DNA of 64,000 nt from Hellea sp. Lineage in GTDB: Bacteria; Pseudomonadota; Alphaproteobacteria; Caulobacterales; Maricaulaceae. Below, piece after piece: positions 1,819 to 8,900 of this stretch (its first letter is position 1; each line of letters begins with the position of its first letter). The DNA lies in assembly GCA_013002305.1 (NCBI GenBank), contig JABDKG010000043.1, forward strand, positions 1-64,000, written 5' to 3'. Both the position numbers and the translations under genes were made by a program. The notes below the pieces were generated by a model. It was not told the origin of the DNA and did no database searches. It saw nothing but the letters and a program-made list of their open reading frames with translations.

Positions 1819-1893
1819 ATTCGCCCCTCAATCCATTGAAGCAGTCTATCCCGTTACCGCGGATTTTTCAATGGCTGCTGATGCGTCTATCCA

Positions 1894-2107
1894 ACAAGTA
1901 CCCCGGATCAAGTTTCTACCTTACCCCGTAGGGCGGATAGAGCGAAGCGAAATCCGCCGTCCCGTTTCAAATGGTTTTTTCCAAAAAATATCCTCGCCGT
2001 CAGAACGGCGCATTTCGAGCGCGATGCGCTTTCTATACGCCCTACGGGTTTAGGTTAATCCGTGGTACTTGGTTGGTACGGGGTTGGGTTAATCCGTGGT
2101 ACTTGGT
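1894..2107. repeat. 177-bp-type palindromic element with tandemly duplicated right end
   Basis: caagtaccccggatca...ccccgtagggcggat...acgccctacgggtttaggttaatccgtggtacttggt, then a second ggttaatccgtggtacttggt. Confidence 0.85.
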
Positions 2108-2297
2108 GACAGGCCGGTCGGCCGGTCGGTGGCGTCATAGTTGAAGTTAATCCCGCCAATGGATTTAACATTACCGCGGCTGTCATAGGTCAGGCCGCGC
2201 GTGCCGGTCTCGCCTGTATCGACGGACTGGGTGACGCGGTTAAAGTTATTATAGCTCATCGCTATATGGCGCGCGCCATCGATAGTAACGCTAATTT
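2108..2297 (-). pseudogene. Rhs core fragment
   Basis: Reverse translation SVTIDGARHIAMSYNNFNRVTQSVDTGETGTRGLTYDSRGNVKSIGGINFNYDATDRPTGLS matches the Rhs core at 8790-8700 (RGNVTSLGGIDMNYDATDRPTGLS); interrupted by the palindromic element. Confidence 0.85.
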
Positions 2298-2540
2298 CTA
2301 GTTACGCTTATCCTTCAACAGCATAAAGGTAATAAATACCGATCCGACAGAAGCGATTAATATACTTATAAGATTTCGTCTAAAAAATATATCCCACTCC
2401 AACACTTTCCCAGCCTGATCGCAGGCTTGAAAACCGTCACAGAAGAAACGATATCCATTTATCATAGACCAAATAACTCCCATTGCAAAAGTAACGATAA
2501 ACACAGTGCAATAAGTTTTAAAAATAGAACGCTTTGTCAT
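2298..2540 (-). CDS. Small membrane protein, putative immunity protein (paralog of 3585-3845)
   Basis: MTKRSIFKTYCTVFIVTFAMGVIWSMINGYRFFCDGFQACDQAGKVLEWDIFF...; two hydrophobic segments; follows a toxin-tip fragment. Confidence 0.7.
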   Translation of the reverse strand: MTKRSIFKTYCTVFIVTFAMGVIWSMINGYRFFCDGFQACDQAGKVLEWDIFFRRNLISILIASVGSVFITFMLLKDKRN

Positions 2541-2552
2541 ATAGTTACGCCC

Positions 2553-2645
2553 TTACGGTTCTTCATCTATTATCTCAACAGCAGTCCCACCAGCAACTTC
2601 TCCCGATGCTGCACCAAGTGCGGCACCTCCGCTGGAGAGATGTCT
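2553..2645 (-). pseudogene. C-terminal fragment of Gly/Ala-rich tip (paralog of 3853-4080)
   Basis: GRHLSSGGAALGAASGEVAGGTAVEIIDEEP*; truncated at its 5' side by the repeat. Confidence 0.65.
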
Positions 2646-2822
2646 ACCAAGTACCCCGGATCAAAATTCAACCTTACCCCGTAGGGCGGATTAGCGATAG
2701 CGTAATCCGCCGTCCCGTTTCAAATGATTGCTTCCAGAAAAAATTCTCACCGTCAGGATGGCGCATTTCGGGCTTTGCCCTCTATACGCCCTACGGGTTT
2801 GGGTTAATCCGGTGTACTTGGT
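2646..2822. repeat. Intact 177-bp palindromic element
   Basis: accaagtaccccggat...ggtgtacttggt; inner hairpin ggcggattagcgatagcgtaatccgcc. Confidence 0.92.
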
Positions 2823-2893
2823 GGCGATTGACGAGGGTTTTCTCGAGGATATTACCAAGGGATTTATATTTGAATGTGCCGAGGCCGTCCCTG

Positions 2894-3340
2894 TCAAAAC
2901 TTTTTCAAAGAATCATGCTTAATAAAATGATACTCTTTGGTCGCGGGTCCGCTGCATTTCAAAAGTGGGAAAAACTCTTTGGTCTTTTTTGAAACTAACG
3001 ATTCTTCGAAATATTTTTTTCTAACATGCTCACTCGTGGGATCTAGGAACGATGAAATATAATACTCTATGTATTTTTGATCGTGCTCTCCGAGCATTCT
3101 CAATTCACCCGATCTAATACTTGCAGTAAATTCACTTTTCCAGATTGGATCACCCAACCTCATCCAACTGAGAAACCGAAATAAGTTTTCATACACCGTA
3201 GATTTTACAACAGAATCAATCGGGTTTGGATATAACTCTGAAATTTTTTCAAAGTTTTCATTTGAATAATAGGCAGCACTCTTCTTCAAGTTTTTCATTA
3301 TTATAGGTTCGAGCAAATTATATAATAGGTTTTTAAACAT
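2894..3340 (-). CDS. Hypothetical protein, candidate immunity protein
   Basis: ORF open, AT-rich, from ATG (MFKNLLYNLLEPIIMKNLKKSAAYYSNENFEKISELYPN...); starts just after the stop of a tip fragment. Confidence 0.6.
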   Translation of the reverse strand: MFKNLLYNLLEPIIMKNLKKSAAYYSNENFEKISELYPNPIDSVVKSTVYENLFRFLSWMRLGDPIWKSEFTASIRSGELRMLGEHDQKYIEYYISSFLDPTSEHVRKKYFEESLVSKKTKEFFPLLKCSGPATKEYHFIKHDSLKKF

Positions 3341-3348
3341 AATTTTTG

Positions 3349-3513
3349 TTAGTCCCCATGATCTCCCAATGATCTTAAAAATCTTTTTATCCAATTATCG
3401 TTTTGTCTTGCCGCTGATTCCGTATGATCAATAATTCTTTGTATAAGTGGATCGCCTCCGGGATGAGGTGCTTCACCTGGTAAAGTGTTAGGGTCAGGAT
3501 TTGGCCCACATAA
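3349..3513 (-). pseudogene. Polymorphic-toxin tip fragment
   Basis: Open reverse frame CGPNPDPNTLPGEAPHPGGDPLIQRIIDHTESAARQNDNWIKRFLRSLGDHGD*, beginning within the 3491-3596 element. Confidence 0.5.
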
Positions 3514-3596
3514 TTAGTCGTAAAAACAGAGCTTTAGCGTCGAAGTGGGCCACAAGGCACGCTTCGCTTTATCTTGTTAAACAACTAATCTGACCC
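3491..3596. repeat. About 106-bp MITE-like element with inverted termini
   Basis: gggtcaggat...ctaatctgaccc ends; internal ggcccac/gtgggcc and taattagt/aactaat inversions. Confidence 0.6.
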
Positions 3597-3845
3597 ATTT
3601 CCTCCCTTTCCCTTATCCTTCACGAACATAAATGTGATAAAGGCTGACATAGCTACCAACCATAACAAAGTTAAAAGCTCTCGCTTCCAAAACACATCCC
3701 AGCTTAAAACCTGACCAGTGTTATCACACGCTTGGAGGCCGTCACAAAAGTAACGATACCCATTGATGACTGACCAGATTGTGCCGGCAACGAACAGTAT
3801 TAAAAATACTATGAGATAAACTTTAGCGATGTATCGTTTATTCAT
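3585..3845 (-). CDS. Small membrane protein, putative immunity protein (paralog of 2298-2540)
   Basis: MNKRYIAKVYLIVFLILFVAGTIWSVINGYRYFCDGLQACDNTGQVLSWDVFW...; 44/78 identities to the 2298 ORF by hand alignment. Confidence 0.75.
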   Translation of the reverse strand: MNKRYIAKVYLIVFLILFVAGTIWSVINGYRYFCDGLQACDNTGQVLSWDVFWKRELLTLLWLVAMSAFITFMFVKDKGKGGNGSD

Positions 3846-3852
3846 TTTGGCG

Positions 3853-4080
3853 CTACCTTTCCAGCCTGTCGTCTATGACTTCCATGGTAGTTCCGCTGGT
3901 TGCTTCCCCAATAGCGGCACCTAAAGCAGCTCCACCATTAGACAAGTTGCCCGCACCGCCAAAGCCAGAGGCACCCGTTAACGCACGACCCGCAAGGTTG
4001 CCCGCTCCAGCTCCAAGTGCTGCACCAGCTCCGGCTTGCGCACCTGCGGAGACAACTCCCAATCCATCAACTGTTCCTGT
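3853..4080 (-). pseudogene. Gly/Ala-rich polymorphic toxin tip, 5' truncated by repeat
   Basis: TGTVDGLGVVSAGAQAGAGAALGAGAGNLAGRALTGASGFGGAGNLSNGGAALGAAIGEATSGTTMEVIDDRLER*. Confidence 0.65.
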
Positions 4081-4257
4081 ACCAAGTACCCCGGATAAAA
4101 ATACAACCTTACCCCGTAGGGCGGATAGAGCGAAGCGAAATCCGCCGTCCCGTTTCAACCAAGAGGGCGCGACCCAAAACCGCAACAATTGCCCGGCGCA
4201 TTTCGGGCTTTGCCCTCTATACGCCCTACGGGTTTGGATTAATCCGGTGTACTCGGT
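4081..4257. repeat. Intact 177-bp palindromic element
   Basis: accaagtaccccggat...atccggtgtactcggt; one reverse frame is stop-free and in frame with the 3853 tip. Confidence 0.92.
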
Positions 4258-4432
4258 TGACCCCGCGCCGCATTTGCGCCCCGCGTCTCGCGGCCAGGCG
4301 CAAGCTCTCATCGCCGGAGAGGCCATCACTGACAATCACAGAAATATCCGCCCCTGCCAGCTGCGCCAAAAGCCGCGACAGCGCCGCCTCATTATTCAAA
4401 TTAGGGATAATCACCGAAACCATAGGGCCCAA
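4258..4432 (-). pseudogene. Duplicated 5' fragment of the window-start glycosyltransferase
   Basis: MGPMVSVIIPNLNNEAALSRLLAQLAGADISVIVSDGLSGDESLRLAARRGAQMRRGV vs MITVIIPNLNNAGGLARLLSQLSGGVERIIVSDGFSDDESLKAAA...RGAQLRRGV. Confidence 0.85.
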
Positions 4433-4575
4433 CCCTACTCCGCGCGCGCAGTATGGCGAAGCGAAAAACGGTGGGTTGGTTTAATTGGGCGGTTTTGGAC
4501 CAAAACCGCAATATCGGGCCAACGCTGCGCTCTGATTCGCCCTACGATAAGGCATTTATCCAGGGTAGTTTGTAA
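4433..4575. repeat. Degenerate palindromic element upstream of the glycosyltransferase fragment
   Basis: cataggg-cccaaccctactccgcgcgcg...gcgaagcgaaaaacgg...attcgccctacg; mirrors 655-810. Confidence 0.65.
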
Positions 4576-4604
4576 GTGAATGGATGATCCGCTATTACAA
4601 ATAT

Positions 4605-5066
4605 CTAACTTGTTTCGTCCTGATAGAACACGCAGAATACTTCTTCATTTTCTTCAACAATACATTTTACAATAAAATCCCGTTCTGGGAACTCAATGTT
4701 CAACTTGGCCCTCCACATTTTTTCCATAGAAAATCCTAAGTATTTTTGTTTTTGAAAATCCAATTCTTCAAATATGCTATCAATACATACTAGATTCATC
4801 CAAAAGTCTGGGCCCTTGTCGTGCGGTTCGGAAGCAATTGTACTTTCATACTTTTGTATAGAAAATTCATCACTTAAGAATACACGGTCTTTAAATAACA
4901 AAAATTCGGGCCAACAGACTTCAACAAAGGCCAATATAAAGTCGGGGTCTATGGACTGTGTTTTCTGAAGAATATGAACGTAATCGAACACTGAAAAATT
5001 TTTTCCAATGTTAGCGTCATTCCATTTTTCGAGATTTGAAAATGGTGGTAGATTTTTGATATTCAA
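4605..5066 (-). CDS. Putative immunity protein
   Basis: ORF starts TTG 7 nt after AGGAGGTG, directly following the TAA of the preceding tip; MNIKNLPPFSNLEKWNDANIGKNFSVFDYVHILQK... Confidence 0.7.
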   Translation of the reverse strand: MNIKNLPPFSNLEKWNDANIGKNFSVFDYVHILQKTQSIDPDFILAFVEVCWPEFLLFKDRVFLSDEFSIQKYESTIASEPHDKGPDFWMNLVCIDSIFEELDFQKQKYLGFSMEKMWRAKLNIEFPERDFIVKCIVEENEEVFCVFYQDETS

Positions 5067-5336
5067 TTATTCACCTCCTGGGATTTCTTCTGGTAGCGGT
5101 TTTCGCACCGTCGCTTTCCCCGGAAAAGGCGTACCGTCTGGCGCGAAATTCAATTCGTTTTCTTTCACGTTTGGACGAGGTATGTCACCATGAGATTGTC
5201 CAGAGCCGCGATATTGTTTGTAGGTACCGTCTCCATTATGTGTTGTATACTGCCCATTTGGACCTGGCTTTTCGATTATTGTGTGAGGCGCACCTTTTGC
5301 TTCAGGCAGCGGGTCTGGACGACTACTTCTATTCTT
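5067..5336 (-). pseudogene. Polymorphic toxin C-terminal tip (orphan), 5' truncated by repeat
   Basis: GKNRSSRPDPLPEAKGAPHTIIEKPGPNGQYTTHNGDGTYKQYRGSGQSHGDIPRPNVKENELNFAPDGTPFPGKATVRKPLPEEIPGGE*. Confidence 0.75.
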
Positions 5337-5513
5337 ACCAAGTACCCCGGATCAAAATTCAACCTTACCCCGTAGGGCGGATTAGCGATAGCGTAATCCG
5401 CCGTCCCGTTTCAACCGGATGGTTTCGGCCCAAACCCGCAACATCGGCTTGGTGCATTTCGGGCTTCGCCCTCTATACGCCCTACGGGGTTGGACTTAAT
5501 CCGAGTACTTGGT
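5337..5513. repeat. Intact 177-bp palindromic element
   Basis: accaagtaccccggat...ccgagtacttggt. Confidence 0.92.
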
Positions 5514-5613
5514 TACCATCGACACAGCCGCTTCCATTCGCATCAGGTTCCCCATAATTGCGACCTATATCAAAATGAGGTATAGTGAGGCCTCAACTGC
5601 GAAGGGGCGAAAC

Positions 5614-6888
5614 ATGGTCGTAGGAGTGTCAAAAGGTTTTCTAAAGCTTTCCACGGCGATACTCGTAGCGACGAGCCTGGTAGCATGCCCTGATGGCGAC
5701 CAAACCGAAAACGAGGAAAACCCGAACTCTCCGGAATTGACCGCCGCGCAGGCCGCTTGCCAATTGCCGGAACTGCCCGGTCTGGACCGCGCCGGGACAG
5801 TGCCCGATACTGCATATTTTGTGAATGGCCAAAAAGTTAAAAGGGGTCTATCGCTAACCGGTGATACCATCGTGGCCAACCATAAGGACATTTCCCCATA
5901 TTACCTTATATTCAAAAGCGTAGACCCAAACGGTTTCGAAAAGGCGGGATATTCTCTGACTATTATTAGCGAGACCGACGATATTACCCTAGAATCCAGC
6001 GTGCCAATTAATGCCGGAACCCGTCAGATCGATAAAAACAGCACAAATGGCAAAGACGGAGGCCCAATCAAGTTTTTAGCGCCGCAGGGCTCGATTACAA
6101 TTTCAGGAAACATCAACGGCAACAGGGGTAGTATTTTCGGCGGCGATGGCGGCGATATTATCTTTTGTGCCAGAGATAAAATCTCAATCGAGACGGGCGC
6201 TTTTATTGTTGCCGGTCACGGCGGAAGCTACGCCCAAGACGCGAAAAACGACATTACCGAAAAAAATCACACCCTTATCGGACGACGTGGCGGCCGCGGC
6301 GGTAATATTTATTTCATCGGTACCGGACCTGCCCCTGTCACTGTGACGATAAACGGACGGGTCACCGCGGGAAAAGGCGGAGCCGGCGAAGCCGCGGACA
6401 TTACCGGTGGAATAGGCAATCGATCCATAACCGGACATGGCGGGACTGGCGGCGAAGGCGGGACCGCATATTTTGACAACGCGACCGCTACAATTGCAAA
6501 AGCCGAATATTTACGACCGGGCGACGGCGGCAATGGTGGCAACGCCAGCGTCTGGGGGTCGGACGGCGAAAGCGGACCCCCGCCTAGCGACGGCGGCAAC
6601 GCGGTTGCCGAAGGCGGCTGGGGCGGAGCCGCCGGGAAAATACCGCTCAATGGATTTGGTGCTAAACACGGTAACGGCGGAAACGCTCGGGCTTACGCTG
6701 GACGCGGAGGTACGGATCCCGGCGGAACCATAACAGCGGCGTCCGGGTCAGCCTCGGCGTTTGGAGGCGGCAGCGGAACCGGCAAACGAACGAATACAAA
6801 ACCGGTCGAAACGCCCCCTGACCCATCCGGAACCGGAGTTTCTGCGGCCCAAGACGGCGAACCGGGACCCGTACAAAAAACACCGTAG
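5614..6888 (+). CDS. Gly-rich secreted lipoprotein (beta-helix/PGRS-like repeats)
   Basis: MVVGVSKGFLKLSTAILVATSLVAC lipobox; repeated GGxGG turns (GGDGGDI, GGRGGRGGNIYF, GHGGTGGEGGTAYF, GDGGNGGNASVWG). Confidence 0.8.
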   Translation: MVVGVSKGFLKLSTAILVATSLVACPDGDQTENEENPNSPELTAAQAACQLPELPGLDRAGTVPDTAYFVNGQKVKRGLSLTGDTIVANHKDISPYYLIFKSVDPNGFEKAGYSLTIISETDDITLESSVPINAGTRQIDKNSTNGKDGGPIKFLAPQGSITISGNINGNRGSIFGGDGGDIIFCARDKISIETGAFIVAGHGGSYAQDAKNDITEKNHTLIGRRGGRGGNIYFIGTGPAPVTVTINGRVTAGKGGAGEAADITGGIGNRSITGHGGTGGEGGTAYFDNATATIAKAEYLRPGDGGNGGNASVWGSDGESGPPPSDGGNAVAEGGWGGAAGKIPLNGFGAKHGNGGNARAYAGRGGTDPGGTITAASGSASAFGGGSGTGKRTNTKPVETPPDPSGTGVSAAQDGEPGPVQKTP

Positions 6889-7022
6889 CGAGATCGCGCT
6901 CTCTGTCTGCCGTCCCGTTTCAATCAAAAGAACTCGGTCTAAAACCGCAATATCGGCCCGGCGCATTTCGGGCGCTCGCCCTCAATGACACCCCACGGGG
7001 GGTTAATGCACCATACTTAGTA
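6886..7022. repeat. Degenerate palindromic element
   Basis: caccgtagcgagatcgcgctctctgtctgccgtcccgtttcaatc...gcgcatttcgggcgctcgccctc...accatacttagtaac. Confidence 0.7.
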
Positions 7023-7023
7023 A

Positions 7024-7545
7024 CTATTTGACAAAGTCAGACATTAATATTGGTACCGATGTTAATATGACATGTGAATCAGCTTCGTTTTCGTTTTCAC
7101 AATTGAGTGCTATAATAAGCGGCCTAAACCAATATTGATCTTCAAATAAATTTTGCTGATTATATAACCCGCTCAAATCTAACTTTAATCGCGCACGATC
7201 GCCGGGCGTAAAAATTATTGTTTCAACGTCTTCTGATAACACGATCCCAAGAGGCGGTCTTTCTAACCGTCGTCCATCTGTTCCAATTATGTCGGCGTCG
7301 TGACGACGACTAGATTTTCCGTCAATTGCGCTTTTATAAATGCAAATATTTTTCTCAGAGGAATTTTCAAAATTAAGATCGATAATTCCGAGTCCGTCAT
7401 TGTATTTATTGATTTTCTCAACAATCAAAGATTCTATAAGCATTACGTTCTTTTTTGGAAATTCCGGGATATTTGAGTACTTCGAAGTTACGCATGCGAC
7501 CTGACTAATTATCACGAACAAGAGAGCGATCCTATGCCTGGTCAT
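7024..7545 (-). CDS. Lipoprotein, putative immunity protein to Rhs metallopeptidase tip
   Basis: MTRHRIALLFVIISQVACVTSKYS lipobox; start overlaps the Rhs stop by ATGA. Confidence 0.75.
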   Translation of the reverse strand: MTRHRIALLFVIISQVACVTSKYSNIPEFPKKNVMLIESLIVEKINKYNDGLGIIDLNFENSSEKNICIYKSAIDGKSSRRHDADIIGTDGRRLERPPLGIVLSEDVETIIFTPGDRARLKLDLSGLYNQQNLFEDQYWFRPLIIALNCENENEADSHVILTSVPILMSDFVK

Positions 7546-8790
7546 CCGCAATTTCCTCCGAATACTAAACATTGATAATTATCATTGTTGTTCAATGCCA
7601 TGGAGGGGTGTTTTTGTGCAAGATATCTTGCCCCGGATTGACCGTAAGCTTTTCTAATAACATTACCGTTTTGATCAATGAATATTCGATGGCTTGCGAC
7701 ACTAGCGGGCGTATTTGATGGAAGCAATAAATCACTCATACCGATATTGTGGCCAACTTCATGAGATATTGCATACGCATTGGCTTTTAAAGCTGCTGAG
7801 TTGTAACCTGGATGTACCGTAATTTGATCACCATTGAGCGTCGCTGTCATTGCGGCGTTTCCGTATGCTTGATCAGAAAATTTAATCGAGGACCCTTCAC
7901 CTTCAACGCCAATTTGGTCATGTATCTTAACAATTGTATTTGAAACAGACACCAAATTTTCAATCGTTGCAGATCCACTACCAAACATCTCTTCAAATTT
8001 TTGTTTTGTTGAAACTTGAGCAGTAGAAAGTTGCTCACCACTCACCGACGCATCAATTAATTCATCAAGATCTTTCCATTCATTCATCAATTCGGTTCTT
8101 GCGTCGGATGCAGCTTGATGGATCGAAGCACACCGCTCATCTCCTTCGCATTTTAACATACCGGTCGGATCAGTCGCATTAATCGGATTGCCTCCGACAT
8201 ACCCATACCGGTTAAACATCAGGGGCTGTTCAACACTGAACTGTACCGGATCGTGACTCAAAAACCGCCCGATCACCGGATCATAATACCTCGCCTGCAT
8301 ATAAGTCAGGCCGGTGTCGGTGTCTTTAATATGGCCGGTGAAGCCGGCCTGGTTATCGTTAGCGGCGTTGTTGACGAGTGAGATGCCAAAGGGCGTATAT
8401 TGCTCGGTCCAGAGGATAGCGCCAGTGTCATCCGTGCCCGCGACCGCGCTGCCGAGGTGATCATGGTGGAGGTAAGTCACTTCATCTGTGTAGTTCAGCC
8501 TCGTGCCGATAGATTTAACCCGCGCGACGGTTTTCCCGTCCATTTTGATATAATTGGTGACATGGTCATCCGCCGTGCCCGGGGCGAGCTGCACCACATA
8601 GGCCAGGCTGCCGGACGCATCATAAACATTATAGCGGGTTGTGCTCGTGCCATCGCCGTTGGCGATCACGGATTTAACCCGGCGGTTATGACCATCATAG
8701 CGGTAAGCCCCGCTCTCATCGCCTGACAGTCCGGTCGGACGGTCGGTGGCGTCATAATTCATGTCGATACCGCCAAGGGACGTTACATTG
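7542..8790 (-). CDS. Orphan Rhs C-terminus with HExxHxxGxxD metallopeptidase-like tip (5' truncated)
   Basis: RYYDPVIGRFLSHDPVQFSVEQPLMFNRYGYVGGNPINATDPTG (Rhs core end) followed by tip containing AISHEVGHNIGMSD; no N-terminus present. Confidence 0.9.
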
Positions 8791-8864
8791 CCCCGGATCA
8801 AAATTCAACCTTACCCCGTAGGGCGGATTAGCGATAGCGAAATCCGCCGTCCCGTTTCAACCGG
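8791..8864. repeat. Left half of the palindromic element
   Basis: ccccggatcaaaattcaaccttaccccgtagggcggattagcgatagcgaaatccgccgtcccgtttcaacc. Confidence 0.88.
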
Positions 8865-8900
8865 ATCGTTGGGAATATAGCGTCGACATTGGAATAGCGC

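Follow-up and report, generated by a model that had tools for sequence, protein, structure and literature searches.

The window, by which we mean the whole 64,000 nt stretch analysed here, contains a degraded rhs locus at about 1.9-8.9 kb on the negative strand, in which pieces of the Rhs core occur together with five or more tip/immunity modules. Orphan tip fragments, each paired with a small gene, are found at about 5336-4605, 4079-3585, 3513-2894 and 2645-2298 (Table 1). Two of these pairs, module 1 (2645-2298) and module 2 (4079-3585), encode the end of a Gly/Ala-rich (GA) tip followed by a small membrane protein with the motif NGYRxFCDGxQACD, here called the NGYR protein. They are separated by the unrelated module at about 2894-3513, and as their setting is a wrecked rhs locus with further modules, we regard the NGYR modules as two among the at least five.

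Table 1. Features of the degraded rhs locus in the window.
Feature	Position	Strand	Description and basis
Repeat copy	1893..2107	.	Cuts Rhs core fragment
Rhs core fragment	2090..2297	-	46/57 identical to 1646-aa Rhs protein on contig C87 of the same genome
NGYR protein 1, putative immunity gene of module 1	2298..2540	-	80 aa, two-helix; ORF, alignment, AF2
Tip fragment 1	2553..2645	-	Last ~30 aa of Gly/Ala-rich Rhs tip, LSSGGAALGAASGEVAGGTAVEIIDEEP, then stop; translation, shuffle test, codon-position pattern
Repeat copy	2646..2822	.	~180 bp, inverted ends; cuts tip fragment 1
Small soluble putative immunity gene of intervening module	2894..3340	-	ORF, ATG about 3340; no Pfam match; role proposed from position
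Unrelated Rhs-type tip end, fragment	3349..3513	-	Contains NPDPNTLPGEAPHPGGDPLIQRI, runs to stop; translation; putative, assigned by position
NGYR protein 2, putative immunity gene of module 2	3585..3845	-	86 aa, two-helix; ORF, alignment
Tip fragment 2	about 3853..4079	-	Last ~76 aa of Gly/Ala-rich Rhs tip, ending LSNGGAALGAAIGEATSGTTMEVIDDRLER, then stop; homology to Rhs C-terminus in G098
Repeat copy	4081..4257	.	~180 bp, inverted ends; cuts tip fragment 2
Putative immunity gene of another orphan module	4605..5066	-	ORF; no family match; putative role
Putative orphan tip fragment	5075..5336	-	Contains DPLPEAKGAPHTIIEKPGPNGQYTTHNGDGTYKQYRGSGQSHGDIPRPNVKE; translation; assigned from form and position
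Repeat copy	5337..5516	.	At boundary of another orphan module
Lipoprotein-like putative immunity gene for the 7542-8801 tip	7024..7572	-	ORF; role proposed from position
5'-truncated Rhs gene, core end and M35-like metallopeptidase tip	7542..8801	-	TIGR03696 E 2.7e-24; PF14521 E 1.2e-5, below its cut-off; 186/228 identical to C87 core
Partial repeat copy	8791..8870		

The stretch at 4226-4432 (negative strand) resembles the N-terminus of the glycosyltransferase encoded at 1-654 (negative strand), as if the array flank had been copied inward. An ORF at 5605-6888 on the positive strand, opposite to the array, encodes a Gly-rich product of about 427 aa that begins like a lipoprotein and has no Pfam match. 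Three small genes with lipoprotein-like products, each close to a repeat or an rhs tip, are found at 7024-7572 (negative strand) in the window, at 2082-2603 (positive strand) in locus L032 and at 3411-3839 (positive strand) in locus L034; they are alike in form, with only 16-20% identity. The main 1646-aa Rhs gene of the genome, at 2224-7164 of locus L052 (G000:C87:63000-70658), has a signal-peptide-like start and a different tip.

Both NGYR ORFs are intact. They lie where the first-pass annotation had placed an ~80-aa membrane protein in each module, and its hand count of 44 identical residues in 78 ungapped positions is exact. Hydropathy and an AF2 model of the 80-aa protein (helices at 3-34 and 49-79, mean pLDDT 71) predict a small protein with two transmembrane (TM) helices. 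Over the 78 codons the pair differs at 24, 21 and 46 first, second and third positions, respectively; Ka is 0.37 and Ks is saturated. Searches of Pfam, NCBIfam, PHROGs and PADLOC gave no family match, in line with the earlier remark that no named family with this motif was known. No match was found among PDB sequences either, and a fold search with the NGYR hairpin gave chance matches only. A promoter scan returned consensus matches only and was uninformative.

The tip fragments end 12 nt (module 1) and 7 nt (module 2) before the start of the NGYR ORF. That the two modules have a GA-rich C-terminus in common, as had been proposed, is borne out by a similarity score of 89 between tips 1 and 2, compared with at most 51 among 2000 shuffles that preserve composition. 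The 26 aligned codons differ at 8, 3 and 22 first, second and third positions, respectively. The codon-position patterns of the tip and membrane-protein frames indicate that both frames evolved as protein, with selection acting on them. Nucleotide identity between the modules is only 58-61%, and we therefore regard them as old homologues; of the "duplicated module" in the first-pass annotation the homology stands, but not a recent tandem duplication. Both tip fragments lack a start, their 5' sides being cut by the repeat that begins at 2646 and 4081. No core homology or DPxG junction is retained upstream of either tip; the ~180-bp repeat stands there. Neither a strong hydrophobic 19-mer nor a strong transmembrane segment is present in tip fragment 2, and its predicted fold when modelled alone is helical, at low confidence.

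The repeat has inverted ends, ACCAAGTACMCCGGAT. Of its 23 matches in the genome, roughly half fall within the window array and a similar array on contig C72, which also holds an Rhs core fragment. In addition to C72, copies are found on contigs C47, C62, C80 and C41. The repeat is often located exactly at module boundaries of the rhs orphan arrays, and its copies are not flanked by any visible target-site duplication. It has the appearance of a small mobile repeat, non-coding, whose copies have gathered in rhs orphan arrays. Contig C87 ends within about 70 nt of a repeat-end copy, just after an immunity-type gene.

A search with tip fragment 2, taken as positions 3856-4080, found an Rhs protein in genome G098, from another genus of the family (E 2e-4). 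The match is to the extreme C-terminus of a protein with an Rhs core and a ~190-aa Gly/Ala-rich tip, and its score beats all of 3000 shuffles of the fragment. With the full G098 tip as query, a pair of further tips in G112 and a single one in G115 came up, 53-70% identical to it; for tip fragment 2 itself the similarity is strongly significant against the G098 tip only, that to the other three being of marginal significance. None of the four Rhs genes, all from genera of the family other than that of the window, encodes another domain after the GA stretch, which ends at the stop codon. Within 2 nt of the end of each tip comes the next gene, whose product has 80-100 aa and two hydrophobic segments, and in three of the four the stop codon of the tip overlaps the ATG. 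One of the tips ends an Rhs ORF of ~1557 aa with a signal-peptide-like start. The full tips contain three to five moderately hydrophobic segments. They gave no match in Pfam or NCBIfam, a tip profile gave none among PDB sequences at E <= 1, and the immunity candidates beside them have no Pfam match. The tips hold 6-12 GxxxG motifs each, barely above what composition gives (shuffle p 0.03-0.31), so that the label "glycine-zipper-like" is not secure. No full GA tip was found on plasmids, nor outside the family in the order and class samples (the class search had no positive control). Matches to the tip in G068 and G063 (E 0.005-0.007) were rejected as due to composition only, one lying in a polyprenyl-synthase-like frame and the other in another GA-rich frame. 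In locus L078 (G098:C4), in the reversed locus at about 5.3-6.6 kb, a signal-peptide-like start, MAFIKPIILTILTLFISTGPWG, is repeated before an orphan GA-rich tip and an Rhs core fragment, as if module capture duplicated the 5' end of the rhs gene.

We found a third NGYR protein, of 89 aa and 40% identical to the 86-aa copy, in the same-genus genome G035. Its neighbourhood agrees with the linkage seen in the window: it directly follows an orphan tip fragment ending GDGSAAIGQEMLDEDPKPNDD in an rhs locus, where an Rhs core+tip gene and the immunity-type gene belonging to it lie further upstream. This fragment aligns in register with the tips of the window, though the similarity is weak. Samples of the family, order, class and phylum contained no further credible relative, none was found on plasmids or phages, and a scan of a genome-contig collection with two sequences found none. 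A weak match in G112:C14 (E 5e-4) was rejected, as it has an internal stop and overlies unrelated genes. Among the genomes sampled, none yielded a full-length Rhs gene partnered by an NGYR protein, and the distribution of the NGYR family and the GA tip given here is that of these genomes. Homology of the NGYR family to the immunity candidates of the four fuller tips is not supported: the two groups share size and topology, but the comparison detected no sequence similarity.

The homology of the modules, their gene order, the linkage of tip and membrane protein, the rhs context and the past selection on both frames are seen directly, and from these sequence features we consider the window modules to be, very probably, orphan Rhs-CT/RhsI remnants. 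Orphan rhs-CT/rhsI and cdiA-CT/cdiI modules are start-less CT fragments with a small immunity ORF, found in rhs loci with core fragments, and transposable sequences may interrupt them (PMC3150448). The window modules likewise lie in an rhs locus with core fragments, their CT is homologous to a longer Rhs C-terminus (tip 1 through tip 2), and the candidate immunity ORF is directly downstream. Core or junction sequence upstream is usual in orphan modules but not always present, and modules without upstream homology have also been reported (PMC3150448); the window tips have the ~180-bp repeat there instead. The first-pass annotation took the tip for an effector in its own right, which we replace by C-terminal remnants of Rhs proteins in an rhs orphan array. 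Its proposal that a hydrophobic GA tip goes together with an immunity protein in the membrane gains support from independent loci, the four Rhs genes in other genera and the NGYR locus of G035. The hydrophobic tip is overstated for the window fragment, which is without a strong transmembrane segment.

Rhs proteins are large toxins deployed by bacteria against one another, and the layout is of a known kind. Tse5 of P. aeruginosa is an Rhs pore-former guarded by the two-TM protein Tsi5 (PMC9637101), and the present loci resemble it in the Rhs shell, the C-terminal and putatively membrane-active tip and the small immunity protein, predicted here to have two TM helices. Unlike Tse5/Tsi5, the fuller Rhs genes begin with a signal-peptide-like segment and have no recognised PAAR domain, and there was no sequence match in the PDB searches. 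The immunity proteins of CDI ionophores are two-helix hairpins of 72-100 aa that diverge strongly among pairs and guard against helical hydrophobic toxins (PMC11630599), which recalls the NGYR proteins and GA tips; the carrier here is Rhs and not CdiA, and the five-helix bundle is a CDI feature, not one shown here. The Imm17 and Imm-CdiI families also have two TM helices and provide immunity in polymorphic toxin loci (PMC3482391), whereas neither the NGYR proteins nor the immunity candidates of the four fuller tips match Imm17 or other curated immunity families in Pfam or NCBIfam. EsxX and TelE, glycine-zipper depolarising toxins (PMC12744356), share a Gly-rich C-terminal toxin and a membrane-bound immunity protein, but their carrier is LXG with type VII secretion, and zipper spacing in the GA tips is not clearly beyond composition. 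The tip and immunity families appear to be unnamed in the libraries searched.

The GA-rich stretch of Rhs proteins might serve only as a linker or in translocation, with some other, real toxin being what the membrane protein protects from. This would fit the hydrophilic C-terminus of tip 2 and the GA-rich stretches that precede other tips in Rhs proteins of this genus (e.g. L058, L072). As the stretch reaches the stop codon with no domain beyond it in four Rhs genes, and the partner of these four tips is always a membrane protein, we consider this quite improbable. We also judge it very hard to credit that the membrane protein is itself a toxic or holin-like element and not an immunity protein. 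Small two-helix membrane proteins can be toxic, and neighbours of related tips give weak, sub-threshold holin-like matches, but a gene immediately 3' to an Rhs tip, its start overlapping the stop of the tip, holds the position typical of immunity genes, and other small ORFs occupy that position after other Rhs tips in this genus.

The tip and the membrane protein could both be genomic debris, functionless now, as might be thought from the repeat-cut, start-less tips and the many fragments in the array. For the membrane proteins we find this unlikely: both ORFs are intact and orphan CdiI immunity genes have been found to be expressed and functional (PMC3150448), while the codon-position pattern speaks of long past selection, which is no proof of present function. 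The toxin parts in the window, on the other hand, are truncated and probably silent.

We therefore return to orphan Rhs modules as the preferred reading, and suggest that the window modules probably retain intact two-helix immunity genes directed against a membrane-active Rhs tip. Since the putative guard is a predicted integral membrane protein, as in Tse5/Tsi5 and the CDI ionophores, the toxin most likely acts in the membrane and would thus be depolarising; by this analogy we lean towards membrane depolarisation as the most likely action of the tip. In brief, an rhs gene would have encoded a protein ending in a Gly/Ala-rich, membrane-active tip, with a two-helix inner-membrane immunity gene next to it, and each window module would be the 3' end broken off such a gene. 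In the fuller form, found in related genomes, an Rhs shell bears the ~190-aa hydrophobic Gly/Ala-rich tip. We infer that this GA-tip system would be expressed, delivered and toxic: the tip may insert into the cytoplasmic membrane of a neighbour cell and dissipate its membrane potential. The immunity hairpin, with both ends predicted in the cytoplasm and a cysteine-containing loop outside, would neutralise the tip by blocking it within the membrane. The immunity genes remaining in the window could then guard against kin or rivals that carry the full toxin.

More tentatively, we speculate that these loci represent a new family of Rhs-delivered depolarising tips with highly polymorphic two-helix immunity proteins, of which NGYRxFCDGxQACD, with its cysteine-bearing outer loop, would be one lineage, and that the small repeat with inverted termini, set between the modules, contributes to their shuffling or disarming, so that immunity genes are left standing alone in arrays. 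Taken as a whole, we hold this proposal to be doubtful.

An unnamed Rhs toxin-tip and immunity family would join the short list of membrane-active Rhs toxins, and the fuller loci in G098, G112 and G115, together with the stranded immunity genes, offer material for its study. Should the NGYR proteins prove protective against full GA-tip toxins, they would provide a clear example of immunity genes outlasting the excised toxin.
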